The notes under the pieces: model-generated | Seen by the model: the letters and a program-made list of their open reading frames with translations, nothing else | What the model was told of the DNA's origin: nothing | The model's database searches: none | Made by a program: the position numbers and the translations under genes | Source of the DNA: Eubacterium sp. | Lineage (GTDB): Bacteria; Bacillota; Clostridia; Lachnospirales; Lachnospiraceae | Direction of reading: 5' to 3' | Assembly: GCA_017938215.1 (NCBI GenBank) | Contig: JAGBBZ010000006.1 | Span: 1 to 64,000 of the forward strand | DNA length: 64,000 nt | Part shown: positions 14,814-33,768 of the stretch, in pieces | How positions within the stretch are numbered: position 1 is the stretch's first letter | How the letters are laid out: each line of letters opens with the position of its first letter

Positions 14814-14834
14814 GAGGAATGGACGGTATTACAA

Positions 14835-18967: not shown

Positions 18968-18975
18968 GGAAAGAC

Positions 18976-20433
18976 ATGAAAATATGTGTTGTGGCAGAGG
19001 GATGTTATCCCTATGTAGTAGGCGGTGTTTCTAGTTGGATTCACAGCTTGATTAAAAGTTTTCCGAATATTGAATTTGTGCTATTAACCATTGTGGCAAA
19101 TCGTTCCCAAAGTGGAATTTTTGCCTATGAATTACCAGAAAATCTGACCGAAGTACATGAAGTGTATTTGGAGGATTTTGATTGGGAAGGTGGCGAGAAC
19201 AAGAAGCGTAAATTCCGGTTGAATAAAAAAGAATACCGAGCACTGCGTAGCATTGTTTTGAATCAAGAAGTGGATTGGGATGGCTTGTTTCAGTTGTTTC
19301 GGGAGAAATCCTTTTCCATTGATGATCTTCTTATGGGCCCAGATTTCTTTCACATTGCCAGAGAATGCTATAAGATCCGCTATCCGCAGATTGTATTTTC
19401 GGACTTTTTGTGGACGTTACGTTCCATATATTTGCCTCTTTTCCTTGTGATGAAGACAGAGATTCCGCAAGCCGATCTTTATCACTGTGTGGCGACTGGA
19501 TATGCCGGTGTTCTGGGAAGTATGGCAAAAAGCTTATATCAATGTGGATTACTTATCTCAGAGCATGGGATTTATACAAGAGAGCGAGAAGAGGAAATTA
19601 TTAAGGCGGAATGGGTAGAAGGAATCTATAAAAATATATGGATTGAACAGTTTAAAAAAATGTCCAAGGTGGCCTATGATCGGTCGGATATGGTGACGAG
19701 TTTGTACGAGCATGCAAGGAGCCTGCAGATTGAATTAGGATGTTCCGAGAAAAAGACGCTTGTAACACCAAATGGAATTGACACAAAGCGCTTGGCGAAT
19801 CTCCCGGGGAAAGAGGGAGAAGAGGCAAAGATGATTCACATCGGCGCTGTGTTGCGTGTGACACCGATTAAAGATGTAAAAACAATGATTCAGGCATTTG
19901 CTTTTGCAAAAGAAAAAGTGCCGAATCTGAAGTTATGGATTATGGGACCATGCGATGAAGATAAGGAATATGCTCAGGAATGTTTTGACTTGGTAGAAAC
20001 ACTTCATGTGTCGGATGTGGTTTTTACCGGACGAGTAGATATTCGAGAGTATCTTGGGCGAATGGACATGACAATCTTGACCAGTATTAGTGAGGGACAG
20101 CCCCTTACGATTTTGGAAAGTTATGCAGCGAAAAAGCCGGTAATTGCCACGGATGTAGGTAATTGTCGTGAGTTGCTGTATGGCAATGAAGATGGGATTG
20201 GCTCAGCGGGAATCCTTACGCACATTATGAATTTGGAGGAAATCTCTGATGCCATGGTGGAAATGGCAGAAAATCAGAAAATGCGTCTGGAAATGGGAGT
20301 CAATGGATACAAACGTCTTATGAGTAAATATAAAATAGAAGATATGAAAGTAATTTATCAGGCGATTTATAAGGGATTTGCCAAAAAATTAAAGAAGCAA
20401 TGGGAGGATAAGCCCTTTGTTATTGAGGAATAG
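18976..20433 (+). CDS. pelF: PelF, family 4 glycosyltransferase of Pel polymer synthesis
   Basis: A 485-residue cytoplasmic GT-B transferase. The N-terminus MKICVVAEGCYPYVVGGVSS is the PelF hallmark (DUF3492), with the donor-binding end ISEGQPLTILESYAAKKPVI and ATDVGNCRELL. In characterised systems PelF uses UDP-N-acetylhexosamine to polymerise the Pel chain. It lacks membrane segments and should dock on the PelD-PelE-PelG complex. GAGGAAA six bases upstream supports ATG 18976; the frame is open farther upstream inside the previous gene, but those starts would overlap it by over 70 bases. pelG follows after 15 bases. Confidence 0.93.
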   Translation: MKICVVAEGCYPYVVGGVSSWIHSLIKSFPNIEFVLLTIVANRSQSGIFAYELPENLTEVHEVYLEDFDWEGGENKKRKFRLNKKEYRALRSIVLNQEVDWDGLFQLFREKSFSIDDLLMGPDFFHIARECYKIRYPQIVFSDFLWTLRSIYLPLFLVMKTEIPQADLYHCVATGYAGVLGSMAKSLYQCGLLISEHGIYTREREEEIIKAEWVEGIYKNIWIEQFKKMSKVAYDRSDMVTSLYEHARSLQIELGCSEKKTLVTPNGIDTKRLANLPGKEGEEAKMIHIGAVLRVTPIKDVKTMIQAFAFAKEKVPNLKLWIMGPCDEDKEYAQECFDLVETLHVSDVVFTGRVDIREYLGRMDMTILTSISEGQPLTILESYAAKKPVIATDVGNCRELLYGNEDGIGSAGILTHIMNLEEISDAMVEMAENQKMRLEMGVNGYKRLMSKYKIEDMKVIYQAIYKGFAKKLKKQWEDKPFVIEE

Positions 20434-20448
20434 AGAGGAGACGTATCG

Positions 20449-21894
20449 GTGGCAGGAATTGGAGTAAAGCTGAAAAGTATATATGACAAAAATACCTTAA
20501 CTACAAATATTCTTGGTATGGGATACAGTACCGTGATTACCATTGCACCCATGGTCCTCGTTATTGCGGCGATTATGGCGATGCAGATTGTCTTGCAAAT
20601 ATCCCGATGCGGATATTCCGAACGAGAGTTGTTTGCGTGTACGGTATTATACATTTTTATCTTTGCGTTACTAACGGCATCTCCATTTAATTCTGTGCTT
20701 TCGCGATATATGTCGGATGTGATTTATGAAGAGCGGTACCAAGACATTTTGCCTTGCTTTTATACGGGAATGATAATGAATGTGGTATTTAGTAGTTTGT
20801 TTGGCATTCCATTTTGTGTGAGAGAATATTTGGTAAGCGATGTTTCGTTCGTGTATGTATTTGCAGGGTATTGTGGATACATCGCATTGGTTCTTGTATT
20901 TTATCAAATGCTCTACTTGTCAATTTGCAAGGATTATAAGAAAATTTCATTCTTTTTCTTAGTAGGAATGCTATTCACTTTGCTTGTATCCTTGCTTTTG
21001 GTGTATGTGTTTCAGATAGAACGAACCTTTTCTATGTTAGTGGCATTGGATTTTGGATTTTTGTTGATTGCAGCATTGGAAATCGCAGTGATACGCAGTT
21101 ATTTCCATGAAAATAGCGGAGAGTACAAGCGTGTGCTGCATTATTTTAAGCTGTATTGGAAATTGGTGGCTACGAACTTTTTGTATACTCTGGGATTGTA
21201 TATTCACAATTTTGTGTTTTGGACTACAGACTTGCGAATGGTGGTGGCAAATACATTTGTCAGCGTGACGTCCTATGATTTGGCCACTTGTCTTGCTATG
21301 TTTACGAATATTTCTTCCAGCGTGATTTTTATTTCTCGTGTGGAAATGTATTTTCATGAAAGATATAAGGCATATTCCGAGGCGGTTATCGGTGGACGAG
21401 ATATGGACATTGAGTTGACCAAGAATCGAATGTTTCGCCAGTTAGCAGAAGAATTGATGAATCTTGTACGAATCCAGTTCATCGTATCGGTTATCTTGTT
21501 CTTTGTATGTATTATTTTGTTGCCACAGTTTGGTTTTGGCGGTATGGTAATGAAAATTTATCCGTGTCTTGCAGCGGGATATTTTATTCTGTTTGTTATG
21601 TATGCGGCAATTATTTTTCTGTATTATTTTAATGATTTGAGCGGAGCGTTAGCTACTGCAATTGTATTTTGTAGTTGTACGATGTTGGGGAGCATTGTGG
21701 CGACGCATTTTTCTGAAATATGGTATGGAATCGGAGTTTTCGCGGGATCTTTCCTAGGATTTTGCGTAGCATATTTTCGATTGAAGTGGTTGGAAGGACA
21801 TTTGGATGAGCATATTTTCTGTCGGGGAACGATATTACAGGCAGGACATGGAAAGCGACCAGCATCTAAAGTGTTTGACCGATATGCAAAATAA
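20449..21894 (+). CDS. pelG: PelG, Pel polysaccharide exporter of the MOP superfamily
   Basis: A 481-residue integral membrane protein with about twelve helices that should carry the Pel chain across the membrane. The N-terminus GVKLKSIYDKNTLTTNILGM followed by GYSTVITIAPM is characteristic of PelG. The start is GTG 20449, with AGAGAGGAGAC upstream. It is directly downstream of pelF, the usual order. No outer-membrane PelB/PelC-like gene is present, as expected for a Gram-positive. Confidence 0.92.
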   Translation: MAGIGVKLKSIYDKNTLTTNILGMGYSTVITIAPMVLVIAAIMAMQIVLQISRCGYSERELFACTVLYIFIFALLTASPFNSVLSRYMSDVIYEERYQDILPCFYTGMIMNVVFSSLFGIPFCVREYLVSDVSFVYVFAGYCGYIALVLVFYQMLYLSICKDYKKISFFFLVGMLFTLLVSLLLVYVFQIERTFSMLVALDFGFLLIAALEIAVIRSYFHENSGEYKRVLHYFKLYWKLVATNFLYTLGLYIHNFVFWTTDLRMVVANTFVSVTSYDLATCLAMFTNISSSVIFISRVEMYFHERYKAYSEAVIGGRDMDIELTKNRMFRQLAEELMNLVRIQFIVSVILFFVCIILLPQFGFGGMVMKIYPCLAAGYFILFVMYAAIIFLYYFNDLSGALATAIVFCSCTMLGSIVATHFSEIWYGIGVFAGSFLGFCVAYFRLKWLEGHLDEHIFCRGTILQAGHGKRPASKVFDRYAK

Positions 21895-21915
21895 ATGTAT
21901 GAGGAGGAAAAAGGT

Positions 21916-22338
21916 ATGGAAACAGGACAAATATTGCGTATGATGATGGTAGCAGCAAGTGTGATTTTATTGTTGCTTACCACATTATCATTAGCAAAAC
22001 GAAGATTAAAGGAACAATTTGCGCTACTTTGGGGCGTGATCTCGGTATTGGTTTTTCTGGGAGGCATTTTCCTGCGCCCAGATACGTGGAACGAGTATAT
22101 CAGCAATACCGGGACTTTGATTATCATCGGGGGAATTGCATGTGTCGTTTGGTGTCTGTTCTTTTTAAGTACACAGCTATCTGTACTCAGTCGTAAAAAT
22201 CAGGAGTTAGCCATGCAGGTTTCTCTGTTGAACCAGGAAAATGAGAGAATTATGGATGAGTTGAAAAAGACGCAGAAGATGAATCAGAAAGTGTTGGCGG
22301 AGGTGGCTGCCCATGAAGAAAATACTATTTGTCATTAA
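21916..22338 (+). CDS. DUF2304-family membrane protein
   Basis: A 140-residue protein with three hydrophobic helices (near residues 8-26, 38-54 and 67-87) and a C-terminal coiled coil (NQELAMQVSLLNQENERIMD). The core LKEQFALLWGVISVLVFLGG is typical of DUF2304 proteins, which are encoded beside glycosyltransferases and are thought to assist them at the membrane. ATG 21916 has AGGAGG at good spacing; an earlier ATG at 21895 overlaps the ribosome site. The 3' end overlaps the next glycosyltransferase by 26 bases. Confidence 0.82.
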   Translation: METGQILRMMMVAASVILLLLTTLSLAKRRLKEQFALLWGVISVLVFLGGIFLRPDTWNEYISNTGTLIIIGGIACVVWCLFFLSTQLSVLSRKNQELAMQVSLLNQENERIMDELKKTQKMNQKVLAEVAAHEENTICH

Positions 22339-23521
22339 TACGTTAGGATGCGCTGGTGCGGAAAATGCGATGCTGGAGTTTATGCGTAATCTGAATCCGG
22401 AGAAATATGAGGTATCTCTGTTTGTGTTGATGAATCAAGGAGAAATGATTCGGCAATTGCCATCCCATGTCAAGGTGTTAAATGTGAATCTTTCGGATTC
22501 TTCGGTACTAAGTAAAGAAGGAAAAGCGGAACTGAATCGTTATATTTTGCGTACCATGTTTCAGCAAGGAAGTGTGTGGAAAAATCTCCCGTATTTGCTT
22601 CGTAACTTCTTTTCCATGTTGGGGAAAGGCAAAATTTTGCCGGACAAGCTTTTGTGGAAAGTGATGTCAGATGGTGTGGCACCGATGACAGAACATTATG
22701 ATATGGCGGTGGCCTACTTGGAAGGTGGTTCTGCGTATTACGTGGCGAATCATGTAGAGGCAGACAAAAAAGTGGGATTTGTTCATATTGATTACGGAAA
22801 AGCAGGCTACACCAGGGCACTGGATCAGGGATGCTATGATACATACGAAAGAATCTATGGGGTTTCCGATGAAGTAAAGGAGCATTTCGTGGAAATGTAT
22901 CCAGAGTATGAGAAAAAAACGGAGGTCTTCCATAATATGGTAAATCAAACGCGAATTCGAGAGCGGGCACAATTGCCAGGAGGATTTGAAGATGATTACG
23001 ATGGGACAAGAATTCTTACCGTGGGACGTTTGACTGCGCAGAAAGCATATGAGATTGCAGTGGAGGCCATGAAGTTATTAAAGGAAAATGGCTACCAGGT
23101 GCGTTGGTACGTGCTGGGAGAAGGAGAAGAACGAAAGTCATTGGAAAAACAGATTCGGGAATATGGGTTGCAGGAAGATTTCATGCTTTTAGGAGCAAAG
23201 GAAAATCCGTATCCATATTACGCTCAGACCGATTTGTATGTACATGCCACAAGATACGAAGGAAAAAGTATTGCCATTCAGGAGGCACAAACCCTTGGAT
23301 GTACGATTCTTGTTTCGGATTGTAGTGGAAATCGAGAACAGGTAGAAGTTGGTGTGGATGGGCAAATGTGCGATTTAACACCAGAAGGAATTTATGAAGG
23401 CATTGTATCGCTGCTGAAAGATAAAGAAGCTTGTCGGCGTTATGGAGAAGCGGCAGGGAAAAAGGATTTGGTGGAGAGAGAACAGTTAGAGCGTTTTTTG
23501 GCGTTAATGAACGAAAAATAA
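22313..23521 (+). CDS. Family 4 glycosyltransferase
   Basis: A 402-residue GT-B glycosyltransferase. The acceptor domain begins MKKILFVINTLGCAGAENAM. The donor domain shows ILTVGRLTAQKAYEIAVEAM, then HATRYEGKSIAIQEAQTLGC with the E-x7-E pattern. It is expected to act in the cytoplasm on a lipid-linked or polymeric acceptor. It is translationally coupled to the DUF2304 gene by a 26-base overlap, with GGAGGTGG inside that gene acting as ribosome site. Sugar specificity cannot be predicted. Confidence 0.88.
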   Translation: MKKILFVINTLGCAGAENAMLEFMRNLNPEKYEVSLFVLMNQGEMIRQLPSHVKVLNVNLSDSSVLSKEGKAELNRYILRTMFQQGSVWKNLPYLLRNFFSMLGKGKILPDKLLWKVMSDGVAPMTEHYDMAVAYLEGGSAYYVANHVEADKKVGFVHIDYGKAGYTRALDQGCYDTYERIYGVSDEVKEHFVEMYPEYEKKTEVFHNMVNQTRIRERAQLPGGFEDDYDGTRILTVGRLTAQKAYEIAVEAMKLLKENGYQVRWYVLGEGEERKSLEKQIREYGLQEDFMLLGAKENPYPYYAQTDLYVHATRYEGKSIAIQEAQTLGCTILVSDCSGNREQVEVGVDGQMCDLTPEGIYEGIVSLLKDKEACRRYGEAAGKKDLVEREQLERFLALMNEK

Positions 23522-23542
23522 GAGACATGGAGGTATCTTATT

Positions 23543-24322
23543 ATGAAAGAAAAAAGTACGAAAGAATTACTAATTATCATTCCAGCATACAATGAAGAAA
23601 AAAATATTGAGAAATTGTTGGATCAGCTGGAGAGTCCGGAAATTGCAGCGATTGCAGATGTGTTGATTATGAATGATGCGTCTTCGGATGCTACAAACTG
23701 GATTGTAAAAGGAAGAAAGTACGAGATTGTCACACATGTATTTAACTTGGGGTATGGTAGTGCCCTTCAGTTGGGGTACAAATATGCGATTCGTCGTGGT
23801 TACGAGTATGTGATTCAGATGGATGCGGATGGTCAGCATGATGTGTGCAATATACCAGTAATTTATAAAGCACTGAAAACCAAGGATGAAAATGGGAAAT
23901 GTCCGGACATTGTGCTCGGATCTCGATTTATGGAAGGTAGCACGGAATTTCCGGTATCCTTTGCAAAGAAACTGGCTTGGTCGTTGTTTCGTGGGATGAT
24001 ATATATGGGGACAAAGCGTCGTATTGCAGATCCTACTACGGGATTACAGGGGTTGAGTCGACGGGTGGTTATTTTTTACTCCCAATACAATCATTTTGAT
24101 GACAAGTATCCGGATGCCAATATTATCATGCAGATGCTCCTGTTAGGATTTCGTTTGGTGGAGGTACCTGCGGTTATGCATCAACGTACAGAAGGGGTTA
24201 GTATGCATTCTGGATTAAAGCCGATTCTATACATGTTCCGCATGGTATTTTCGATTATTGCGGTGTGGATTGGAATCCGTGGTTTCAAATTAGATGCAGG
24301 AGCAGCAGATGAAAGCGAATAA
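23543..24322 (+). CDS. Family 2 glycosyltransferase, dolichol-phosphate-mannose-synthase type
   Basis: A 259-residue transferase with ELLIIIPAYNEEKNIEKLLD, MNDASSDAT and the DADGQHD metal motif near residue 95, the DPM-synthase-like subgroup of GT2. FRGMIYMGTKRRIADPTTGL and a C-terminal hydrophobic segment (MFRMVFSIIAVWIGI) complete it. Enzymes of this type commonly load a sugar onto undecaprenyl phosphate, which would supply a GT-C-type transferase. GAGACATGGAGG precedes the ATG. It overlaps the next gene by 14 bases. Confidence 0.88.
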   Translation: MKEKSTKELLIIIPAYNEEKNIEKLLDQLESPEIAAIADVLIMNDASSDATNWIVKGRKYEIVTHVFNLGYGSALQLGYKYAIRRGYEYVIQMDADGQHDVCNIPVIYKALKTKDENGKCPDIVLGSRFMEGSTEFPVSFAKKLAWSLFRGMIYMGTKRRIADPTTGLQGLSRRVVIFYSQYNHFDDKYPDANIIMQMLLLGFRLVEVPAVMHQRTEGVSMHSGLKPILYMFRMVFSIIAVWIGIRGFKLDAGAADESE

Positions 24323-25508
24323 ATGGAAAACAGAGAAAACATCTTTGCAGGAAAGTACGGAGATGTTGTTAAATCCTGGGTGTGGGTGGTATGAGATTCA
24401 TTCGTTTTGGGTGGAGAAAGAAGTGTCGGAGGAAGAAATCCAAGCTTGTCTGAATCCGGAACACTCCTTGGTTCTGGTACGCATTCACCTAGGGGCATAT
24501 CAAAATGCGCCGTTGGATGCCACCGCGCTAAAACATATCAAACAAATTTTGTCTGTGTTTGAAAGAGCCAAAAAGGACGTTATTTTGCGATGCTGTTACG
24601 ATTTTGAAGGAATGGGGATGGCACAGGAGCCGGGCGAATTTTCCAAAGTTGTGACGCATATGAACCAAGTGGCAAATGTAGTGGCACAGTACGAAAATGT
24701 TGTGTATCTGTATCAAGGAGTTTTGCTAGGCAGTTGGGGAGAAATGCATACGTCAAAGTTTTTGCGACTGGAGAACATCGCTGAATTGTCAGAGATTTTT
24801 CGCAAAGCAACCAAGGAAATGGTGTGGCATGGCGTCAGGAAGCCAGAATTTAAGTCATCCAATTGGGAAAATGTCACGATTTTTGATGATGGGATTTTGG
24901 GGTCTCCCACACACCTTGGCACCGTGGATTTCCCAACAGAAATGGTAGAGCTGGAGAAGATTGGTTTGAATTCTCCATATGGTGGCGAGATTGTCGGTGG
25001 AGAAGATGCTCTGTCATGGTCGCTCATGGAGACGGTAGAGCGATTGGAGAGATTGCATGTCAGTTATTTGAATTGTCGCCATGACGAAACATTGTTGCAA
25101 CATTGGGAACAGCAAAGGGTGGAGACAAATGATGCTTGGAATGGCATGAATGGAAGGGATTACATTGGCCGACATTTGGGATACCGTTTTTATGCGAATG
25201 GATGGCAAGAGAAACGGCGTAGTTCCCTGGCAGATTCGATGTGTCTGGAAATATATATTGAGAACAAAGGATTTTCGGATATATATGAAGAGGTGGAGTG
25301 GCACCTGCTTCGGCAAGAGGAACAAATGGGGGTACAATCCATGAAAGGGGTGTGTCCAAGTGGAAGAAAAATCCGGCTCACTTGGGAATTTCCAAGAAAA
25401 GCCGGGACTTACTATCTTGCTTTGCGACGAAGGAAGGATAAACGACCAATATATCTGGCAAATCCTTCCGATGAACTGGGAAGAATGTGTTTGGGAGAGA
25501 TTATTTAG
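24309..25508 (+). CDS. DUF4874/DUF4832-type protein, cytoplasmic form
   Basis: A 399-residue protein with an N-terminal NPGCGWY motif and barrel-like strands (LVLVRIHLGAYQNAP, DVILRCCYDFEG, GVLLGSWGEMH). A C-terminal domain contains HLGYRFYANG and beta strands. This pattern, NPx(C/Y)G followed by GxxG-WGEMH and a jelly-roll-like end, matches DUF4874 plus DUF4832 proteins, thought to be glycoside-hydrolase-like; no activity is established. There is no signal peptide, unlike its paralogue immediately downstream. ATG 24309 has AGGAG six bases upstream. Its stop overlaps the convergent paralogue by four bases. Confidence 0.75.
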   Translation: MKANKWKTEKTSLQESTEMLLNPGCGWYEIHSFWVEKEVSEEEIQACLNPEHSLVLVRIHLGAYQNAPLDATALKHIKQILSVFERAKKDVILRCCYDFEGMGMAQEPGEFSKVVTHMNQVANVVAQYENVVYLYQGVLLGSWGEMHTSKFLRLENIAELSEIFRKATKEMVWHGVRKPEFKSSNWENVTIFDDGILGSPTHLGTVDFPTEMVELEKIGLNSPYGGEIVGGEDALSWSLMETVERLERLHVSYLNCRHDETLLQHWEQQRVETNDAWNGMNGRDYIGRHLGYRFYANGWQEKRRSSLADSMCLEIYIENKGFSDIYEEVEWHLLRQEEQMGVQSMKGVCPSGRKIRLTWEFPRKAGTYYLALRRRKDKRPIYLANPSDELGRMCLGEII

Positions 25509-26911
25509 TGTATGGTTAAAGTTCCCAGAGGAAGTGAGCCGTCGCTGGTAGCTTCTTTATTTGCAAAATGAATGGGAAGCTTTGTTGCAGGATCATACAT
25601 TTGGAGAGAAATTTTGTATTCGCCCTTGGAAAGCTTTGGAAGCTTAATGGAAGTTTCCATGCCTTCACGTTCAGGCATAATCCTGCGAGTATCAAGCTCG
25701 ACCGGATGTGAGGTGGTTTCCATCGTTTCTGTATGGGTAAGCTGGAGCGTCGTATCAAAGGTGCGATAGGACGGAGCAAAGCCGGTGTTGGAAAAGGAGA
25801 GGAAAAGTTGGTCCTTTTGGAGCGATGAGCTGGTTACGACAAAACGATAGCCCAAATGGGCTTCCACGTATTCATAGCCAGTGCATCCATTAAAAATATC
25901 CGCATCCTCTCCGCGATAGATGGTGCTTTTCCATTTATTCAGTACCTTGCCATCATAATCACAGCTGAGATAGGAAACGTGCATTGTGGCGAGATCTTGA
26001 GCAGCCTGAGGAAAATCGTTGTATGAATTTTCAATAATGACTTCCCCACCATTGGGAACGTAACGACATAATTGGTTTTGAAAATTCAGTTCTTCTTCTC
26101 GAGTCCCCTTTTCAGAAAGGTCTGTGGAAGAGGAATATGAGGTGTCGTCGTAGGTGCCACAATCCAATACATTTCCCATCATGCCATCGTTATAAAGACC
26201 GAGACGAGAGGGAAGAGTGCCAGTGTAGCTTTCGTTGTTGCTCAAAGGATTCTTCTGCCCGGTAATGGCTCGCAGATGTGAAGGGGTGCGAACTGCCAGA
26301 AAGATATTTGGATCAATCACGTCTGCCAACTTCTTCATAAGAATTTGGATGTGTTCATTGGTGCCATAGTTCGTCTGATTCATTTCACCACAGTTGCCGG
26401 TGAAGACGCCTTGCAAGGAAAAAATGTGCCCCACATGGCGATTCACAACAGAAGCAACCTGGTCCATATGCGCCATGAGTTGAGTGATTTCGCGAGGCTC
26501 GGTTTCCAAAGCTTTTCCATCCCAATCATAAAGAAAGCGAAGAATAAGCTGCTTGTCAGCGGAGGCAAAGGTTGCTAGGATGTGGTCCAATTGCTGAAGA
26601 GCATTGGAAGAAATATCTTTATTTGAATAGTTTTTCAGGTTGATTTGTAAGAGTACCAGAGACTGGGTGTCGTTTTCCAGCATTTGTCGGCACCAGATGT
26701 CCGCATCGGTTCGAGATGCTTCAGATAAGGTATATCCATATAAGTGAAAAAAACCACAGTAAGGATTTTGCACGAATGTATTACTTTCATTTAGGGGCGT
26801 GCTTTTATATGAAAATTTGGTTTTGGTAACAAAGGAAATCAAACCAAAGGCAAGGATGAAAAGGAGTAGCACTGCTACCCAAGGGAAAGGTTTATGACGA
26901 AATCGTATCAT
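25505..26911 (-). CDS. DUF4874/DUF4832-type protein, membrane-anchored paralogue
   Basis: A 468-residue relative of the preceding gene, encoded on the opposite strand. A signal anchor covers residues 12-28 (VAVLLLFILAFGLISFV), so the bulk is outside the cell. Matching motifs are NPYCGFFHLYGY, LILRFLYDWDGK, GVFTGNCGEMNQ and EAHLGYRFVV. Some 25 residues are inserted around the YTGTLPSRLGLYNDG region relative to the cytoplasmic form. It may bind or process the exported glycan. AGGAGCTATAATC precedes the ATG, a weaker ribosome site than its neighbours have. It is divergent from the flippase. Confidence 0.75.
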   Translation of the reverse strand: MIRFRHKPFPWVAVLLLFILAFGLISFVTKTKFSYKSTPLNESNTFVQNPYCGFFHLYGYTLSEASRTDADIWCRQMLENDTQSLVLLQINLKNYSNKDISSNALQQLDHILATFASADKQLILRFLYDWDGKALETEPREITQLMAHMDQVASVVNRHVGHIFSLQGVFTGNCGEMNQTNYGTNEHIQILMKKLADVIDPNIFLAVRTPSHLRAITGQKNPLSNNESYTGTLPSRLGLYNDGMMGNVLDCGTYDDTSYSSSTDLSEKGTREEELNFQNQLCRYVPNGGEVIIENSYNDFPQAAQDLATMHVSYLSCDYDGKVLNKWKSTIYRGEDADIFNGCTGYEYVEAHLGYRFVVTSSSLQKDQLFLSFSNTGFAPSYRTFDTTLQLTHTETMETTSHPVELDTRRIMPEREGMETSIKLPKLSKGEYKISLQMYDPATKLPIHFANKEATSDGSLPLGTLTIH

Positions 26912-26997
26912 GATTATAGCTCCTAACTAAATTGATATGATTAGTATAGCACAGGATGAAAAAGATTACGACAAAAAATGTAATAGGAGGTGTCGAT

Positions 26998-28542
26998 GTG
27001 GTGGAAAAAAGTAGAACGGAACATTCTGTAAGAAATACAACAGCAGCTATGGTTTCAAAAATTGTGGCAGTGTTGATGGGATTTGCCACTCGTGTTGTAT
27101 TTACACATACATTAAGTGAAAGCTACGTCGGCGTTAACGGGTTATTTTCTGACCTTTTAAATGTATTAGCGTTGTCGGAACTGGGAGTAGGAACAGCCAT
27201 AACCTACGCATTGTATCGGCCGATTGCTGAGGGAGATACAGAAAAGCAAAAGTCTTTGATGCAGTTGTATTGCTTTTTCTATCGCATTGTAGCCGGAATT
27301 GTACTAGTGGCTGGTCTGGCAGTTATACCATTTATGGATCTTTTGATTAAAAACCAACCGGATATTGACCATTTGATCTTGATTTATCTCATGTATCTGG
27401 CAAATTCGGTATTGTCCTATTTGTTGATTTACAAGAAAACGCTGATTGACGCTCACCAGCTTAGTTATCTGGGAGAAGTGTACCAGATGACAGCGATTTT
27501 GATTCAGGATGTTTTTCAGATCATATTACTTTTGACAACCCACAATTTTATTTTGTTTTTGGTGGTGTATATGATTTGTACCGTCGGAAACAACGTGGCG
27601 ATTTCACGGAAGGCGAATCAGCTGTATCCATATTTGAAGGATAAGAATATTCAGCCATTGCCGAAGGAAGAGAAAAAAGGAATTTTTAAAAATATTCGTG
27701 CCATGCTTATGCATAAGATTGGAGATGTGGTGGTAAATAATACAGACAATCTGCTTTTGTCTTCCATCGTAGGAATTATTAGTGTTGGCTGTTATTCCAA
27801 TTATTATCTGATCATCGGATCCATTCATCAGCTTATGAGCCAAGTGTTCCGAGGGATTACTGCCAGTGTGGGGAATCTTGGAGTGACCGAAAATCCCGAG
27901 CGCGTAAAACGAATCTTTGAAAGTTCGTTTTTTGTGGGGCAGTGGTTGTATGGTTTCGCGGCCATCTGTCTATGTGAACTATTGAATCCTTTTGTAGAGG
28001 TTAGTTTTGGAGAACAATATGTATTCCCAATGAGTGTGGTAGTGATCCTGTGCGCGAATTTCCTTATCACAGGAATGCGTCAAGCGACATTGGTATTTCG
28101 CGATTCTCTTGGATTGTTTTGGTTCGACCGCTACAAGTCTTTGGCAAGTGCGTTGTTGAACCTGATGATTTCGATTTTATTGGCAAGACAATACGGAACG
28201 GCGGGAGTGTTCGGAGGTACCATCATCAGCACCATACTTACATCGTTTTGGGTGGAACCGTGGATTCTTTATCGACACTCGCTTAAGGCAAAGGTACGGA
28301 TGTATTTTATCCGTTATGCCATGTATATTTCGGTGATAGGAATTGCCTGGGGATTGACTCATATGATTTGTGTATCTTTTCACGGGACACCATGGCAACT
28401 CATCGGGAAGCGTTTGATTCCATGTATCTTTGTTCCAAATGTTATTTTTCTAATCTGTTATTTCCGTACCAGTGAATTTGGCTTTTTGTGGCAGAAGGCA
28501 AAAGGGATATGGAATCAATGGAGAGGAGGAAGACGAGGATGA
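26998..28542 (+). CDS. Polysaccharide flippase of the MOP superfamily
   Basis: A 514-residue membrane protein with 12-14 hydrophobic segments, related to Wzx-type oligosaccharide flippases. Typical features are VRNTTAAMVSKIVAVLMGFA with TRVVFTHTLSESYVGVNGLF at the N-terminus, and LNLMISILLARQYGTAGVFG near the end. It should move lipid-linked sugars across the membrane. AGGAGG at 26985-26990 lies seven bases before GTG 26998, which I prefer over an ATG at 26956 that has no ribosome site. Its last bases overlap the start of the nucleotidyltransferase gene as ATGA. Confidence 0.85.
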   Translation: MVEKSRTEHSVRNTTAAMVSKIVAVLMGFATRVVFTHTLSESYVGVNGLFSDLLNVLALSELGVGTAITYALYRPIAEGDTEKQKSLMQLYCFFYRIVAGIVLVAGLAVIPFMDLLIKNQPDIDHLILIYLMYLANSVLSYLLIYKKTLIDAHQLSYLGEVYQMTAILIQDVFQIILLLTTHNFILFLVVYMICTVGNNVAISRKANQLYPYLKDKNIQPLPKEEKKGIFKNIRAMLMHKIGDVVVNNTDNLLLSSIVGIISVGCYSNYYLIIGSIHQLMSQVFRGITASVGNLGVTENPERVKRIFESSFFVGQWLYGFAAICLCELLNPFVEVSFGEQYVFPMSVVVILCANFLITGMRQATLVFRDSLGLFWFDRYKSLASALLNLMISILLARQYGTAGVFGGTIISTILTSFWVEPWILYRHSLKAKVRMYFIRYAMYISVIGIAWGLTHMICVSFHGTPWQLIGKRLIPCIFVPNVIFLICYFRTSEFGFLWQKAKGIWNQWRGGRRG

Positions 28543-29753
28543 TTTCTAAGGAAGAAAAATGGTTAATGCAAGCATTAAGTGCTGCGCTTCGAGGGACAGA
28601 TACCGAGACGGAATCCATGGAAAAGGTAGAAGTGAATTGGAATCGAGTTCTTACCTTGTCGCAGACTCATGCGGTGGTACCCTTTTTGTACTCCCTTGTG
28701 GAGTGTGGTGGGATTCATTCCAACATAGTTCCTTCGATTCAAAATACTTGTATCCAAACGGTACAACAAAGTTACCGACTAATGTTTTTGACTCATTATG
28801 TGGTAACGCAATTGGAAGCTGCAGGAATTCCTGTAGTGGTGTTAAAAGGGGTATCTGCTGCGGCGCTATACTCTGTGCCGGAATTGCGCAAATCCGGTGA
28901 TGTGGATTTGTTTTTGCCGCAGGCGGAAGAAACGTTGGAGCGGGCAGCGAAGGTGATGGATGAGGCTGGTTTTTTGCGTGAAGTGGAACAGCGTGTGAAT
29001 CACCATCATGTATGGCGTACACCACAAGGAATTGAGATTGAACTTCATGTTATGTTGGCAGAGCCTTTTGATGATGAAGGTGTGAATCGGATTTTGGCGG
29101 ACATATCTCAGAATGTGTCACAGCATATGGAACGCAAGGAAATTATGGGACTGTCATTTCCGGTACTAGCGGAGGCGTACCAAGCGTATCAGTTATTGCT
29201 TCATATGTTGCAACATTTTTTACGTTCGGGCTTTGGACTGAAACTATTGTGTGATTGGGTTGTGTTTTGGAATCGAAACATATCGAAGGAAGAGATACGT
29301 CAATATAAGCACCTTATTAGAGAAAGTGGTTTGGAAGGTTTTTCCGATATGGTAACGTGGATTTGTATGAATCACTTGGGGCTTTATGAATCCAAAGGCA
29401 AACAGATTATTTCTCCGAAGAACATGAGTGAGCGCTATGATTCTTTTTTGGAAGATATTTTGGAAGCTGCTGAATTTGGGCAAAATGACGAGGCGCGAAT
29501 GGTGGTGCTCCGTGGTACTGGGTTGAAGGATTATGTGAGAGAGTTTCATCATCAAATGAAATTAACATATCCTACGGAAGGGAAAAAAATAATTCTTTGG
29601 CCGATATTATGGACTAAACTTTTCCTTCAATTCTGCCGAAACAATAAACAGATACGAAATGTGTCCACGCGACAAGTGTTGAAAAAGGCGAGAGAGCGAA
29701 GTCGAAATATGGCTAATCTTCGTCTGTTTCAAAAAAATGGGAAAAAAAGTTAA
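28539..29753 (+). CDS. Nucleotidyltransferase-fold protein (NTP_transf_5-like)
   Basis: A 404-residue cytoplasmic protein with the minimal nucleotidyltransferase core of the NTP_transf_5 family: VVVLKGVSAAALYSVPE followed by KSGDVDLFL, whose Asp-x-Asp should bind Mg-NTP, and EIELHVMLAEP as the third acidic strand. Genes of this family often lie next to PqqD, HPr-kinase-like and exporter genes in peptide clusters; the substrate is unknown. AGGAGG at 28524-28529 gives nine bases to ATG 28539, which overlaps the flippase stop as ATGA. The next gene has its own strong promoter. Confidence 0.82.
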   Translation: MISKEEKWLMQALSAALRGTDTETESMEKVEVNWNRVLTLSQTHAVVPFLYSLVECGGIHSNIVPSIQNTCIQTVQQSYRLMFLTHYVVTQLEAAGIPVVVLKGVSAAALYSVPELRKSGDVDLFLPQAEETLERAAKVMDEAGFLREVEQRVNHHHVWRTPQGIEIELHVMLAEPFDDEGVNRILADISQNVSQHMERKEIMGLSFPVLAEAYQAYQLLLHMLQHFLRSGFGLKLLCDWVVFWNRNISKEEIRQYKHLIRESGLEGFSDMVTWICMNHLGLYESKGKQIISPKNMSERYDSFLEDILEAAEFGQNDEARMVVLRGTGLKDYVREFHHQMKLTYPTEGKKIILWPILWTKLFLQFCRNNKQIRNVSTRQVLKKARERSRNMANLRLFQKNGKKS

Positions 29754-29771
29754 TAAAATAATTGTAAAGTA

Positions 29772-29801
29772 TTGACAAAAAGTTATATCATGGTATATAA
29801 T
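29772..29801 (+). promoter_or_regulatory. Strong promoter of the precursor-like gene
   Basis: TTGACA at 29772-29777 and TATAAT at 29796-29801 with an 18-base spacer in a very AT-rich context. It is followed by a short leader and GGGGGAATTTA before the start codon. The gene is a single-gene unit closed by a strong terminator at 30247. Confidence 0.82.
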
Positions 29802-29850
29802 GTCAATACAATTGAGTTACTGTTGAAAAAAATTTAAATGGGGGAATTTA

Positions 29851-30228
29851 ATGATGAAAAATTACTCAAAACCAACAATTATGATAAACGATGAATTGAG
29901 CGAAGGTGTATATGCAGCAAGTGGTTGCTATACAGTAAACACGATCGTTCGTCAGGATCAGCAGGAAGGTCGTACGGATTATCGTATTCAGGTGAATGGA
30001 AGACATGAAGCAGATCATTCGAATCATAAACAGACATTGACGATTTCCTTTAATATTCCTGTTGAGTATAAGTCTAGTAACGGTACTTTGGTAGGACTTT
30101 CTACAGGAACAACTCTTGTAATTGATTATGACTATACTCAGAATCCAACAGATAACATCGGTCTTGGTGACTTGATCGTATCTGCTGATCAAGGACTTGA
30201 GATTACAAGTGTTAAGTTGACAGACTAA
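29851..30228 (+). CDS. Precursor-like 125-residue protein with leader-type N-terminus
   Basis: A small protein in two parts. Residues 1-26 form a leader-like segment (KNYSKPTIMINDELSEGVYA followed by ASGC) with no classical signal peptide. Residues 27-125 look like a compact beta-sheet domain rich in Thr, Asn and Asp, with RTDYRIQVNGRHEADH and DNIGLGDLIVSADQ. From memory, similar ELxEGVYAASG starts occur on short Lachnospiraceae proteins next to PqqD and ABC genes; this is unverified. Its own consensus promoter, strong ribosome site and terminator suggest high expression. The downstream exporter, PqqD-kinase fusion and signal-peptidase-like protein make it the likely exported substrate. ATG 29854 is an alternative start. 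Confidence 0.72.
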   Translation: MMKNYSKPTIMINDELSEGVYAASGCYTVNTIVRQDQQEGRTDYRIQVNGRHEADHSNHKQTLTISFNIPVEYKSSNGTLVGLSTGTTLVIDYDYTQNPTDNIGLGDLIVSADQGLEITSVKLTD

Positions 30229-30246
30229 TTCGAAAAAGATGATATG

Positions 30247-30280
30247 AAAAACAGGTGTGAAATTCACACCTGTTTTTTTT
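30247..30280. terminator. Bidirectional terminator between precursor and ABC genes
   Basis: AAAAACAGGTGTGA at 30247-30260 pairs perfectly with TCACACCTGTTTTT at 30264-30277 around a three-base loop. T residues follow on the + strand and A-rich sequence precedes, so it can serve both convergent genes. Confidence 0.9.
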
Positions 30281-30283
30281 ACA

Positions 30284-32050
30284 TTAAAAATCATGAATCA
30301 TTGTATCAATTTCTTTTTGATCCAGAATAACACAAGCTTTGTCTTGGATTCGATAAACTCGATTGCATATGTTTAAAACCGATGGTCGATGTGTGGTCAC
30401 AATACAAGTTCTCGGATATTTATCCTCTTGAATCTGTTTTAATATTCGGCGTTCTGTAGCCACATCCAAAGCAGATGTAGCTTCGTCTAATAATAAAATT
30501 GGTGAACGACGAAGAAGCGCACGTGCAATGGATAGACGCTGTGCTTGCCCTTCGGAAAGTCCACCACCTCGTTCTTTCAATGGGGTTTCAATGCCTGTCG
30601 GCAATTTGTTGACAAAGTCCCAAGCGCAGGCCATTTTTAGAACTTTGATAATTTCTTCATCCGTGGCATCTGGTTTTACATTTCGCATATTCTCAGCAAT
30701 CGTTCCCGAAAACATAGTATTTCCCTGCGGTACATAAGAAAATACTTTACGACAGGATGGCGTAAGTGGAAGTGCTTCTGAACCATCTACATTCTCCAAA
30801 CAAAGGGTTCCGTTTTGTGGCGTTAAAAGTGCTAAAAGGAGACGAAGCATCGTGGTTTTACCTTCCCCGGAGGGTCCTACAAGGGCAATGATTTCATGAG
30901 GATTTGCCACCAGAGAAGCCGCTTGGAATACACAGGCGCCATTGGCATAGGTATAGTCGATATCCGTCGCTTTTAATCGGATTCCATTGGTTTTGTTCTG
31001 CTGTTCGAAAGCAATTACCGCTTCATCTTGACTGAAATCTTCTTTTGGCATTTCTAAGATATCCATGAGACGACCAGCAGAAGTAGTAATACTGATTGCA
31101 TTTGGTACGAGGGAAATCAAGGAATTCAACGTACCTGTCAATGTACCAGAAAGAGATAAAAACATGGTCATGGTACCATAGCTGATAATTCCCGCCCAAA
31201 CGCGGTAAATTCCCCATCCATATGAAGTGTAGGACACAATGAGTCCAACCACAGCCATAAGAATGGAGGAGAACATAGACATGCGCTGGAAGTCCATACG
31301 CATGGTAAGATATTCTTTTTGTAAATTCTTAAGGTAACGGACGTAAAGAGGAATCAAGTCAAAGGCTTTAATGGTCTGAATGTTGGAAAAGGCTTCCTGA
31401 TTAAATCCAGACATGCGAGCATTTAAGTCCGCACTACGTTTGTTGTTATTTATCATACGATTCATCAATGTTTTTGACATAAGCAGTGTTACTGGAATGC
31501 CGACAAATGAAAAAATAGCAAAGGTGGCATCATAGTAGATCACGATGGCAAAGGCGCTAATGAATTTGAACGTATTAATGATAAGACTTGGAATCCAATT
31601 CAATATACCATTGGAGATGGCAGAGGCATCCGAGCTCCAGCGAGTCAAAAGGTCACCGGTATGATAGGAGGCAATGGACTCCCAATCCGTAACAAGCATT
31701 CTAGAAAAGATATCGGCTTTGATCTCATTGTCCACCTTCATACTGATCCAGTTCGAAATATAGCTGGAAAATTGGTTGATGACGATGCTGCCGAGGGCAA
31801 GTCCAACCATGGCGCAAAATGTTTTCAAAAGTGCTCCGGTTTGGTGACCGGTAATCATATCAATTAAATCCTTGGAAACCAGATTGCTCCCGAGGGCGAT
31901 GCCAGTTCCAAGAAGTCCAATAAACGTATAAAAAATGATAGCTAGCCAGTAACGTCTGGCGTATTGGTAAATCCATTTTGTCTGATGGAGCATATCTTGT
32001 AGTCGCCCTTCTCGAATTCGACGACCGATAAATTTTATTTTTTCCAACAT
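30284..32050 (-). CDS. ABC exporter (fused permease and ATPase)
   Basis: A 588-residue half-transporter. Six membrane helices cover about residues 35-310. The ATPase domain has Walker A GPSGEGKTT, Q-loop YVPQGN, signature LSEGQ, Walker B ILLLDEATSALD and H-loop TTHR. It has no N-terminal C39 peptidase, so any leader removal must be done by another protein. ATG 32050 has GGAGGG seven bases upstream and shares one base with the stop of the PqqD-kinase gene (TGATG), so the two are translationally coupled. In context it probably exports the precursor-like protein encoded convergently. Confidence 0.92.
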   Translation of the reverse strand: MLEKIKFIGRRIREGRLQDMLHQTKWIYQYARRYWLAIIFYTFIGLLGTGIALGSNLVSKDLIDMITGHQTGALLKTFCAMVGLALGSIVINQFSSYISNWISMKVDNEIKADIFSRMLVTDWESIASYHTGDLLTRWSSDASAISNGILNWIPSLIINTFKFISAFAIVIYYDATFAIFSFVGIPVTLLMSKTLMNRMINNNKRSADLNARMSGFNQEAFSNIQTIKAFDLIPLYVRYLKNLQKEYLTMRMDFQRMSMFSSILMAVVGLIVSYTSYGWGIYRVWAGIISYGTMTMFLSLSGTLTGTLNSLISLVPNAISITTSAGRLMDILEMPKEDFSQDEAVIAFEQQNKTNGIRLKATDIDYTYANGACVFQAASLVANPHEIIALVGPSGEGKTTMLRLLLALLTPQNGTLCLENVDGSEALPLTPSCRKVFSYVPQGNTMFSGTIAENMRNVKPDATDEEIIKVLKMACAWDFVNKLPTGIETPLKERGGGLSEGQAQRLSIARALLRRSPILLLDEATSALDVATERRILKQIQEDKYPRTCIVTTHRPSVLNICNRVYRIQDKACVILDQKEIDTMIHDF

Positions 32051-33213
32051 CACAAATCCCTCCGTATATGATCATCGATTATGGATTTCATATAATGAGC
32101 GGCCGCAGGTTCCTTTGTACAAAGAAGCCGAGTGACCAGTATATTTTCAGCTACATTTTGAGCAAATATAAGATTATCGTCAAGCATATGCGCGGTCCAG
32201 CAAGGAGAAATCATCCGTTGGACAATGCGTAAGGCCTGTTCATCAGGAGATAGAGTAACACATTCATTGGTGGCGAATTGTTTTAAAAATATAATTCCAC
32301 CTAAAGGATAGGTTCCGGGATCTGCCATACCAGATGTACCACACCAAGGAGTTCCGTGAATGCTAGGAATTCCGTCAAAACAAGAGATAAGATTCACATC
32401 GCCATTGAGAATCGGTGTATCAAAGGCGTCCTTCCAAAGATTGGTGTGGGTGGATTTCCCAGTGCCGGAAGACCCGGAAAATAACCACGCTTTCTCCTTA
32501 TACCAAAGGGAAGCAGAGTGAATTGCGCGGAATCCTAAAGTCTGTGCCCGGTAGAGAAAAAGCATGCGAATGGCATGGAAGATATCTTCTTGTAATATGT
32601 CACGATAAGGAAGATGGCAACGAATCTGGGCGCGACTTCCATCTTTGTGAATGCGTGCTTCTTGAATTTGCTTTGCCTGTGGAAAAAGAATGGTATATTC
32701 TTCTGCGTGCTGGCTTACAATAAGCTCTTCGGTACATATCAATAAGGCACCTCCGGTGGATGTAACAGTGGGGCCGGAAGTTGTAAGGATCTCAATGGTG
32801 AGAGAAGGTGTGTCATGACATTCCGACTGAATAAATGGTGTAAAGTTATCAGAAATGGCCTCTTTGGGACCGGAAATGCAAATCGAAATTCCTGCAATAT
32901 GTAGATACGTGTCATGGGATGAGTGACGGCTGTTTGTGTCATCTTCCAGCATTCCCCAAGCCGATAGCTGCGAAAGAAATGAGTTCATATCCTGTTCTAA
33001 TTCAGGAATTTCTTCTTCGAGTGCTTCGTATTTCTTTGTAAAAGCAGAAAGGAGCTCCTGGTGGCTGATTTCCTCTTCCAGCGCTAACCACAAAAATTCT
33101 CCCGCTTCATTTATCTTCATTCCACGGCGATGTTCCGCAATGTTTTGCCCATAGGGAAGAAGATACGGTATATTATGAATATGAGTTAATTGATAGCCAT
33201 TTGTTCGTTTCAT
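32050..33213 (-). CDS. PqqD-like domain fused to an HPr-kinase-like ATPase
   Basis: A 387-residue protein. Residues 1-95 follow the PqqD/RRE pattern (IPYLLPYGQNIAEHRRGMKI, INEAGEFLWLAL, then an acidic helix with EIPELEQDMNSFL). Residues 200-387 form an HPr-kinase/phosphorylase-like domain: FRAIHSASLWYKEKAWLFSG leads into Walker A GSSGTGKSTHT near residue 248, and NGDVNLI follows at the HprK-type acidic site. Related kinases in lasso-peptide clusters phosphorylate a precursor serine; here the target would be a bound leader, which is inference. It is the first gene of the leftward pair, behind the symmetric promoter at 33241, with AGGAGG upstream of the ATG. Confidence 0.82.
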   Translation of the reverse strand: MKRTNGYQLTHIHNIPYLLPYGQNIAEHRRGMKINEAGEFLWLALEEEISHQELLSAFTKKYEALEEEIPELEQDMNSFLSQLSAWGMLEDDTNSRHSSHDTYLHIAGISICISGPKEAISDNFTPFIQSECHDTPSLTIEILTTSGPTVTSTGGALLICTEELIVSQHAEEYTILFPQAKQIQEARIHKDGSRAQIRCHLPYRDILQEDIFHAIRMLFLYRAQTLGFRAIHSASLWYKEKAWLFSGSSGTGKSTHTNLWKDAFDTPILNGDVNLISCFDGIPSIHGTPWCGTSGMADPGTYPLGGIIFLKQFATNECVTLSPDEQALRIVQRMISPCWTAHMLDDNLIFAQNVAENILVTRLLCTKEPAAAHYMKSIIDDHIRRDL

Positions 33214-33240
33214 GCGAATACCTCCTACTTACTAGTTTTC

Positions 33241-33273
33241 ATTATAGCATTATTTGTAAGAAAATGCTATAAT
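33241..33273. promoter_or_regulatory. Symmetric divergent promoter in an 11-base inverted repeat
   Basis: ATTATAGCATT at 33241-33251 and AATGCTATAAT at 33263-33273 are perfect inverted repeats 11 bases apart. Each arm carries a TATAAT -10 box pointing outward, and each arm's TAGCAT is correctly spaced (17 bases) to be the -35 of the opposite promoter. The two promoters serve the PqqD-kinase operon (left) and the signal-peptidase-like gene (right). Since they overlap, one polymerase should block the other; a dimeric regulator could also bind. Confidence 0.72.
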
Positions 33274-33315
33274 GGTGCAATAGAAGTCACAAATTATTTG
33301 TAAAGGGGGATGAAG

Positions 33316-33768
33316 ATGTCAGAGCATGTGGAGATTGAAAAGGAATTGGAAAAGGGAAATATCATTCAGGTGAAGCCGAGAGGATATAGCATGTATCCGC
33401 TGTTTGTGCCGGGGCGGGATGAGGCATTGATCCAGAAGACAGGGAGCGATGGATTGCGCCGGGGAGATGTCGTTTTGTATCGCCGAACAGGAAGTATATT
33501 GGTGTTACATCGAATCTGGAAACGTCAGGGAGATTCGTTCTATATGGTGGGAGATAACCAGAGAGAAGTGGAAGGTCCTCTTCCTGCTAGCCAGATTCGG
33601 GGACGCATGATTGGCATAATACGGAAAGGAAAACATATTTCAGTAGAGCACCCTGTATATCGGTTATATAGTGGGGTGTGGCTTTTGTTAAGACCCTTTC
33701 GTCCGGGAATATCTCGGGGGATTCACAGAATAAAGACATGGATGGGGAAGAATCGAATGGGAGAATAA
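33316..33768 (+). CDS. S24/S26 signal-peptidase-like protein with Ser-His type active site
   Basis: A 150-residue protein. PRGYSMYP (residues 22-29) holds the nucleophilic Ser. RRGDVVLYRR leads to VLHRIWK, where a His replaces the Lys of bacterial type I signal peptidases, as in ER-type and SipW-type enzymes. FYMVGDNQ is the GDN box. Hydrophobic segments are weak, so membrane attachment is uncertain. AAGGGGG lies six bases before ATG 33316; ATG 33310 abuts the ribosome site. It shares the divergent promoter with the exporter operon, and is the best candidate for cutting the precursor-like protein. Confidence 0.82.
   Translation: MSEHVEIEKELEKGNIIQVKPRGYSMYPLFVPGRDEALIQKTGSDGLRRGDVVLYRRTGSILVLHRIWKRQGDSFYMVGDNQREVEGPLPASQIRGRMIGIIRKGKHISVEHPVYRLYSGVWLLLRPFRPGISRGIHRIKTWMGKNRMGE

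Follow-up and report, generated by a model that had tools for sequence, protein, structure and literature searches.

Gene Content of the Locus

We analyzed a 64,000-nucleotide stretch of contig JAGBBZ010000006.1 (Eubacterium sp., Lachnospiraceae; assembly GCA_017938215.1; hereafter the window), taken from a genome that is 68% complete (G000, contig C38), in which a small leader-bearing precursor protein is encoded amid the components of a putative export cassette (Table 1). A preliminary description of this DNA had placed five genes at 28539..33768 and read them as a maturation and export cassette: an NTP_transf_5 nucleotidyltransferase-like protein (NTP5), the 125-residue precursor, an ATP-binding cassette (ABC) exporter, a fusion (KIN) of a PqqD domain with an HPr-kinase (HprK)-like part, and a Ser-His peptidase of the S26 type (S26). 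All five are present at these positions. The precursor, which had been called highly promoted, is indeed preceded by a perfect consensus promoter; two perfect σ70 sites occur in the window versus 0.05 expected, and perfect consensus sites were found in 12/101 distinct stretches upstream of precursors versus 3/848 upstream of other open reading frames (ORFs), an imperfect comparison in that many control stretches are operon-internal or have uncertain starts. The exporter matched ABC_membrane (from residue 39) and ABC_tran alone, with no C39 peptidase domain, as had been stated. For the fusion, the PqqD part was found in the window protein itself, but its HprK label derives from homologues: the HprK-related kinase A model matches 37 of 57 KIN homologues at E ≤ 0.1 and not the window protein, whose sole kinase-like match is ScmC (E 0.069). 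The signal-peptidase-like protein matches TIGR02228, below the cut-off of that model. The conserved neighborhood is wider than the five genes noted, as it reaches upstream to a MATE-like gene, whose 3’ end overlaps the NTP5 gene (28542 versus 28539), and to a Pel exopolysaccharide locus.

Table 1. Features of the cassette and the adjoining Pel locus in the window.
Feature	Position	Strand	Basis and remarks
NTP_transf_5 nucleotidyltransferase-like protein (NTP5)	28539-29753	+	Pfam, E 9e-37
σ70 promoter of the precursor gene	29772-29801	+	Promoter scan; perfect TTGACA-18-TATAAT
Precursor, 125 aa	29851-30228	+	ORF list; split into leader and class A core
Leader of precursor, residues 1-25	29851-29925	+	YxxPxI motif and EGVYAASG; comparisons of 8 homologues, 15 proteins and 102 ORFs
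Class A core of precursor, 100 aa	29926-30228	+	Beta-type by sequence pattern alone; no solved relative found
Intrinsic terminator	30250-30280	+	10-bp perfect stem, 5-nt loop, T-run; between the convergent precursor and ABC genes; read from the sequence, not in the scanner's list
ABC exporter	30284-32053	-	Pfam, ABC_membrane and ABC_tran
PqqD-HprK-related fusion (KIN)	32050-33213	-	Pfam PqqD, E 7e-6, then P-loop kinase-like part
HprK-like domain of KIN	32116-32580	-	His232, P-loop Lys253, Asn270-Gly-Asp272, GxPWCGxS; approximate boundaries
PqqD domain of KIN, residues 31-88	32950-33123	-	Pfam and profile comparison; recognition element (RRE)
S26B-like Ser-His peptidase (Ser27, His67)	33310-33768	+	TIGR02228 match, under its cut-off
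MATE-like flippase	26956-28542	+	Weak MatE match, E 0.004, under cut-off
Pel exopolysaccharide locus and associated genes	14004-26911		Pfam; similar genes recur beside the cassette in relatives
DUF2194 gene	17156
DUF3492/GT4 gene	18892		Pfam DUF3492, E 7e-77
PelG gene	20449		Pfam, E 1e-150
DUF2304 gene	21895
GT4 gene	22313
GT2 gene	23543
DUF4874/DUF4832, first	24294	+	Pfam
DUF4874/DUF4832, second	25505	-	Pfam

A Conserved Leader on Unrelated Cores

A single-sequence search with the precursor gave matches in 17 of the 299 family genomes, three of which we set aside as chance hits (named by eye: G128, FliP-like membrane protein; G155, giant repeat-rich frame of 8785 residues; G188, trigger-factor-like lipoprotein). 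It returned full-length homologues and also matches to about residues 2–28 alone, on otherwise different proteins. Common to the precursor homologues is a 24-residue leader, M-x-x-Y-x-K-P-x-V-x-x-N-x-E-L-A-E-G-V-Y-A-A-S-G. Residues Y5, P8, E18-G19-V20-Y21, S24, and C26 are invariant in eight full-length homologues, and Y5, P8, EGV, and S24 in a set of 15 proteins that includes divergent ones, with Y21 nearly so. When one genome per species was scanned, 116 relatives emerged, and the best 80 of them yielded 79 loci. In most cases the record title gives Lachnospiraceae or a genus such as Roseburia or Acetatifactor; the remaining titles point to Eubacteriaceae, Clostridiaceae, Oscillospiraceae, Gastranaerophilales (two loci), Olsenella porci, and one bin each of Coriobacteriaceae and Solobacterium, although the labels of bins can be wrong.

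From 81 loci (L037–L117, two of them from IMG/VR) we extracted by pattern 102 leader-bearing ORFs, which derive from 74 loci. Numbered with Gly0 as the start of the core, these leaders have Tyr at −20 in 100/102, Pro at −17 in 100/102, Val or Ile at −15 in 92/102, Ala, Gly, or Ser at −2 in 102/102, Ser at −1 in 101/102, and Gly at 0 in 100/102, counts for which the extraction pattern partly enforces Y, P, and EGVY; variants with EGVF, EGIY, or EAVY occur elsewhere, so the motif is not absolute. Among Ser/Thr positions in the leaders, the next best after Ser(−1) is occupied in 26. By hydropathy alone, none of the 102 leaders has a Sec-type hydrophobic core: their best 10-residue mean averages 0.76 and reaches 1.24 at most, versus 2.45 for the signal peptide of L089 (see below), and we therefore discarded Sec export of the cargo. 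Genomes with only weak leader-profile matches, at E > 1e-3 (G047, G098, G117, G256, G267, G287), were excluded from the leader-positive set; two of them, G256 and G267, have PelG. The two IMG/VR contigs with leader-bearing ORFs (L116, L117) may be bacterial rather than phage.

BLAST linkage placed 76 of the 102 cores in one cluster (classes A and B), 11 in the Cys-rich class C, and seven in class D; the rest form two pairs and four singletons, one of which (L055:9461, 40 residues) looks truncated and was retained. Profile comparison (hhalign) joined class A to class B (97.4%, E 1.5e-11) and gave 0.2% for A versus C and 0.4% for A versus D. The leader accordingly sits on unrelated cores: class A as in the window, Cys-rich, carbohydrate-binding module 2 (CBM2)-like, and singletons. 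Core length is mostly about 80–130 residues, and no C-terminal residue common to all cargo was found. Against Pfam and NCBIfam the window precursor gave no match above chance level, and against PDB sequences the class A profile gave nothing but chance-level matches. In class D, 6/6 members scanned alone match CBM_2 at E ≤ 0.01 (best 1.4e-7; one displayed score was 23.2 versus a cut-off of 24), and the seventh (L063:9587) was scanned only within a 20-protein set, 6/20 of which matched CBM_2; the class D profile also matches the C. fimi CBM 1exg (E 0.003). Of the 74 loci with a leader ORF, 23 hold at least two, and 21 hold different core clusters; in G022 (contig C55) and G029 (C51), leader genes lie on contigs apart from the cassette. 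One leader on many cores, together with unlinked cargo, argues for an export tag rather than a one-product biosynthetic cluster. Two further leader-bearing proteins of G146 (L183:8763-9176, minus strand; L184:8474-8956, plus strand) have cores that by eye resemble ubiquitin-type beta-grasp folds; the stretches read contain no cassette gene.

In two loci, L089 and L098, a leaderless class A domain (query residues 26–125) forms part of giant open frames (from 5957 and 6092 onward, respectively), which have a Sec-like hydrophobic start and, by eye, place the domain among Cna-B-like repeats. For these two draft genomes, whose completeness is not stated, we found no full KIN (one lacked any match at E ≤ 1e-8, and the 109-bit match of the other covered the kinase only), no PelG, and no match to the leader at E ≤ 0.05 with a query that matched 23/299 family genomes. 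From this pattern it follows that the domain boundary coincides with the end of the leader, that the domain fits the cell exterior, and that leader and fusion are absent together.

Recurrence of the Partner Genes

Leaving L089 and L098 aside, 77 of the 79 loci were searched with profiles for the partners; many are short contigs, and 40 comprise at least 20 kb. ABC was detected in 71, KIN in 61, NTP5 in 55, and S26 in 52 of the 77. In the 40 longer loci, the co-occurrence around precursor homologues that the preliminary description had proposed to look for was mostly found, with ABC in 40/40, KIN in 38/40, S26 in 34/40, and NTP5 in 27/40. The outcome that it had named as fatal to the cassette idea, precursor homologues mostly lacking these partners, was thus not observed. 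Of 40 loci that have both MATE and NTP5, the two genes adjoin in 35. In the L109 genome the kinase match lies at a contig edge.

At the genome level, we defined full-length KIN as matches over 360 bits and leader-positive as a profile match at E < 1e-5. Full-length KIN occurs in 16/299 family genomes, 15 of which are leader-positive, versus 2/283 of the others, with a p of 3e-22 that, like the p for leader and PelG given below, overstates independence as the genomes share ancestry. Leader-positive but lacking full KIN are G146 and G213, the latter having a divergent KIN (24.7% identity) together with ABC, S26, NTP5, MATE, and Pel genes. Among 391 genomes of the class, full-length KIN was confined to two genomes of the same family as the window; a first scan of genome contigs with the kinase alone had given no match. 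Since the set recurs in dozens of loci, its co-occurrence is more than chance, and that the genes form a conserved, coherent unit is, in our estimation, practically certain. Carriers named in the records are Roseburia porci, Fusicatenibacter saccharivorans D41t1, and Eubacterium plexicaudatum ASF492.

Second-tier kinase matches in G023 and G049 were set aside, lying among ordinary genes with no cassette seen, and G221 and G047 were classed as sister clusters without the leader. By eye, sister clusters at L152:7252-10783 and L153:7743-11100 combine ABC, separate HprK and PqqD genes, and S26, with no EGVYAASG cargo seen; that of L152 adjoins another polysaccharide locus. In high-GC Coriobacteria, L046 contains the whole cassette (62% GC) and L065 part of it (71% GC over the locus), which suggests an old transfer of the cassette between phyla.

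Association with the Pel Locus

In the window, pelF- and pelG-type genes are adjacent; we take the DUF3492/GT4 gene to be PelF. Two further conserved Pel-locus proteins (14004-14813 and 14835-17159), without a Pfam match at E ≤ 0.01, recur in relatives. PelG is present in 52/299 family genomes, among them 17/17 leader-positive ones versus 35/282 others (p 1e-14), and in 15/16 genomes with full KIN. In 14 of the 17 leader-positive genomes, PelG and a leader gene share a contig (within ~16 kb in 13, ~28 kb apart in G135); in G025, G146, and G240, PelG is on another contig. Of the 40 loci of at least 20 kb, 29 hold a Pel-locus gene, and the partners are distributed unevenly between these and the 11 loci without one: KIN 29/29 versus 9/11, S26 29/29 versus 5/11, NTP5 23/29 versus 4/11, and MATE 21/29 versus 3/11. 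Pel is a conserved partner of the cassette and not a chance neighbor, a point that the preliminary description had missed.

Properties of the Cassette Proteins

In NTP5, residues D121, D123, and E168 are invariant in 29/29 aligned proteins. The PqqD part of the KIN family matches, as a profile, the RRE of the lasso peptide protein TbiB1 (5v1u, E 1.6e-4), an RRE being the element that recognizes leaders of ribosomally synthesized and post-translationally modified peptides (RiPPs). In the HprK-like part, mapped by spacing, His232, Lys253, Asp272, and the GxPWCGxS stretch are present in 57/57 homologues, and the position of the first HprK Asp is Asn270 in 57/57; other HprK-like proteins of these genomes have DGD, NGD, or NDD at that site. 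Ser and His of S26 are invariant in 49/49 aligned members. TIGR02228 is matched by 45/49 S26 members at E ≤ 0.001 and the nickel superoxide dismutase (NiSOD) maturation protease model by 24/49, and the S26 profile matches SEC11C (7p2q, E 6e-4). The best 19-residue hydropathy is ≤ 1.45 in 48/49 members and 1.81 in one; because S26 by hydropathy mostly lacks a clear membrane segment, cleavage on the inner side is suggested. PADLOC returned no match for the four non-ABC proteins, and we rejected a role in anti-phage defence.

Some histidine kinases near HprK/PqqD/S26 genes (L152:6383-7189, plus strand; L153:6611-7528, plus strand; L175:1754; L107:2264) bear a leader-like YxKPx[VLI] near the N-terminus. 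This motif occurs in 4/13 histidine-kinase ORFs, defined by motif, of the fetched loci versus 2/957 ORFs of at least 200 aa in L037–L115, and an RRE might bind these kinases.

Discussion

Among known systems, the cassette comes closest to lasso peptide clusters that include a kinase and a nucleotidyltransferase (paeninodin and pseudomycoidin type), with which it shares a PqqD/RRE, a YxxPx[hydrophobic] leader motif, an HprK-related kinase, NTP_transf_5, and an ABC exporter. Lasso B1 proteins recognize the leader motif YxxPxL (PMC10368454), which the leader described here resembles with its Y-x-x-P-x-[V/I]. In contrast to those clusters, the RRE is here fused to the kinase, an S26 peptidase is present, and the cargo is domain-sized and of several families. 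The penultimate leader Thr of lasso precursors is absent, position −2 being Ala, Gly, or Ser in 102/102 leaders with Gly0 as core start. The preliminary description was also right that lasso-specific enzymes are missing from the cassette: among the 16 cassette genomes, 3 of which are under 90% complete, the B2 transglutaminase-like protease (PF13471) scored above cut-off in one (G096), on another contig, and Asn_synthase (PF00733) matched in all 16 but never on the cassette contig. We consequently dismiss a lasso peptide cluster.

Peptidase-containing ABC exporters carry a C39 domain and act on double-glycine leaders. The resemblance lies in a short N-terminal leader with small end residues, an ABC exporter, and leader removal presumed to occur at export; here, ASG closes the leader, and an RRE-kinase and a separate Ser-His S26 protein appear to share out the tasks of recognition and cleavage. 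With no peptidase family in the window exporter, C39-type export was rejected. S26 shares Ser-His sequence matches with the NiSOD maturation protease, which removes a soluble propeptide, and with Sec11-type signal peptidases; it appears to differ from them in showing no clear membrane anchor by hydropathy, and its presumed substrate has no Sec signal. Gram-positive Pel loci have been described as pelDEADAFG, and the window resembles them in its PelF- and PelG-type genes and the DUF4832 accessory gene; the accessory genes described in the accessible part of that report include no leader-bearing cargo, RRE-kinase, or ABC exporter (PMC7112168). A full-text literature search for the leader string, the gene combination, and the Pel context, with subscription papers and preprints largely outside its coverage, found no description of the system.

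These observations support the cassette reading of the preliminary description and extend it: the leader and its conservation, the existence of several unrelated cargo families, and the unlinked cargo genes had not been seen there. We consider it probable that the genes constitute a leader-directed ABC export route, operating without a Sec signal peptide, for small, probably folded beta-rich domains, a route genetically tied to Pel; taken by itself, export of the cargo by the cassette appears very likely. In the model we favor, cargo would be made at a high level from its own promoter, and the PqqD (RRE) half of the fusion would bind the Y-x-x-P-x-[V/I] leader in the way lasso B1 proteins bind YxxPxL. 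The HprK-like half would then consume ATP in marking or gating the cargo. Provided that all cargo is a substrate of the kinase, Ser(−1) is the likeliest acceptor, since it is the only Ser/Thr position common to nearly all leaders (101/102) and no C-terminal residue is common to all cargo. The soluble-looking S26 protein may remove the leader near AS/G, with an ABC dimer exporting the core. Outside the cell, the cores, of which class D resembles CBM2, could join the Pel matrix or the cell surface, and NTP_transf_5 and the MATE-like protein would likely form the polysaccharide-facing side. That the cargo works with Pel or another glycan seems to us somewhat better than an even proposition.

Several observations weigh against this model. 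The window core matched no carbohydrate-binding family, CBM_2 included, so that the case for glycan binding comes from class D and the Pel link. Pel does not need the cassette, as 35 PelG-positive genomes are leader-negative at E < 1e-5, and no Pel-locus gene lies in reach in 11 of the 40 longer loci. In 6 of these 11, S26 is out of reach as well (0/29 of the Pel-positive loci); another peptidase may serve them. Full KIN without PelG occurs in G096, which also fits less well in having no profile-detectable leader and, between KIN and ABC, a variant ORF that has EGIYAGSG and lacks YxxP. In G146 (68% complete), which has three leader ORFs and PelG, the stretches read showed a small PqqD protein but neither full KIN nor ABC nor S26. 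The invariant Asn in place of the first HprK Asp makes kinase activity uncertain; given the DGD, NGD, or NDD of other HprK-like proteins in these genomes, it is plausible but not assured. To these add the shared ancestry behind both p-values, and the fact that we infer export, the order of steps, the cleavage site, phosphorylation, and glycan binding from sequence patterns.

A RiPP-type reading, in which the core itself is modified and a modified polypeptide secreted, is unlikely, though it accounts for the conserved active-site residues of KIN and NTP5. It would have HprK-like phosphorylation followed by glycosylation or nucleotidylation by NTP_transf_5, as with PsmK and PsmN on pseudomycoidin: PadeK and PsmK are described as phosphorylating the lasso tail Ser, PsmN as linked to hexose addition to it, and the pseudomycoidin tailoring pair as an HprK-type kinase plus an NTP_transf_5-type protein (PMC9266682). 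Cores of about 80–130 residues from unrelated families, without a common C-terminal residue, are difficult to reconcile with such tailoring, as are the appearance of the same core in leaderless Sec-type proteins of genomes without full fused kinase and the 13 of 40 loci with NTP5 out of reach.

The adjacency of NTP5 and MATE and their tracking with Pel could alternatively mean that the cassette exports a carrier or terminator protein, which is covalently joined to the polysaccharide via a phospho-Ser; the kinase and NTP_transf_5 would build this linkage, and lipid-linked sugar would come from the MATE-like flippase. We regard this as improbable, given that some cassettes have no NTP5, MATE, or Pel gene within reach and that no acceptor residue is common to the cores across families. 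Least probable of all is a multi-product bacteriocin exporter with antibacterial cores: the variety of cargo genes within a locus and the strength of their own promoters would suit it, but no immunity-like gene was seen beside the window cargo (ORFs read by eye only), class D is CBM2-like, the association is with Pel, and the four non-ABC proteins drew no PADLOC match.

Returning to leader-directed export, its most far-reaching form is tentative: an undescribed secretion pathway, mainly of Lachnospiraceae (plus Coriobacteria and a Solobacterium bin), in which a lasso-type module (RRE, HprK-related kinase, NTP_transf_5, ABC) minus the cyclase may have turned into a general exporter, with Ser(−1) phosphorylation gating S26 cleavage and release, and changeable lectin-like matrix cargo building or decorating the Pel biofilm. 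Parts otherwise known from peptide-antibiotic clusters would here serve an apparently undescribed secretion route, and the named strains among the carriers make the system testable. If the model is correct, bacteria of gut and rumen would own a secretion route with substrates lacking a hydrophobic signal peptide, and a class of extracellular proteins would have stayed hidden. RiPP leader recognition would then be reusable for exporting whole domains, the leader would represent a short, transplantable export tag, and the cargo would provide candidate protein partners of Pel in Clostridia.

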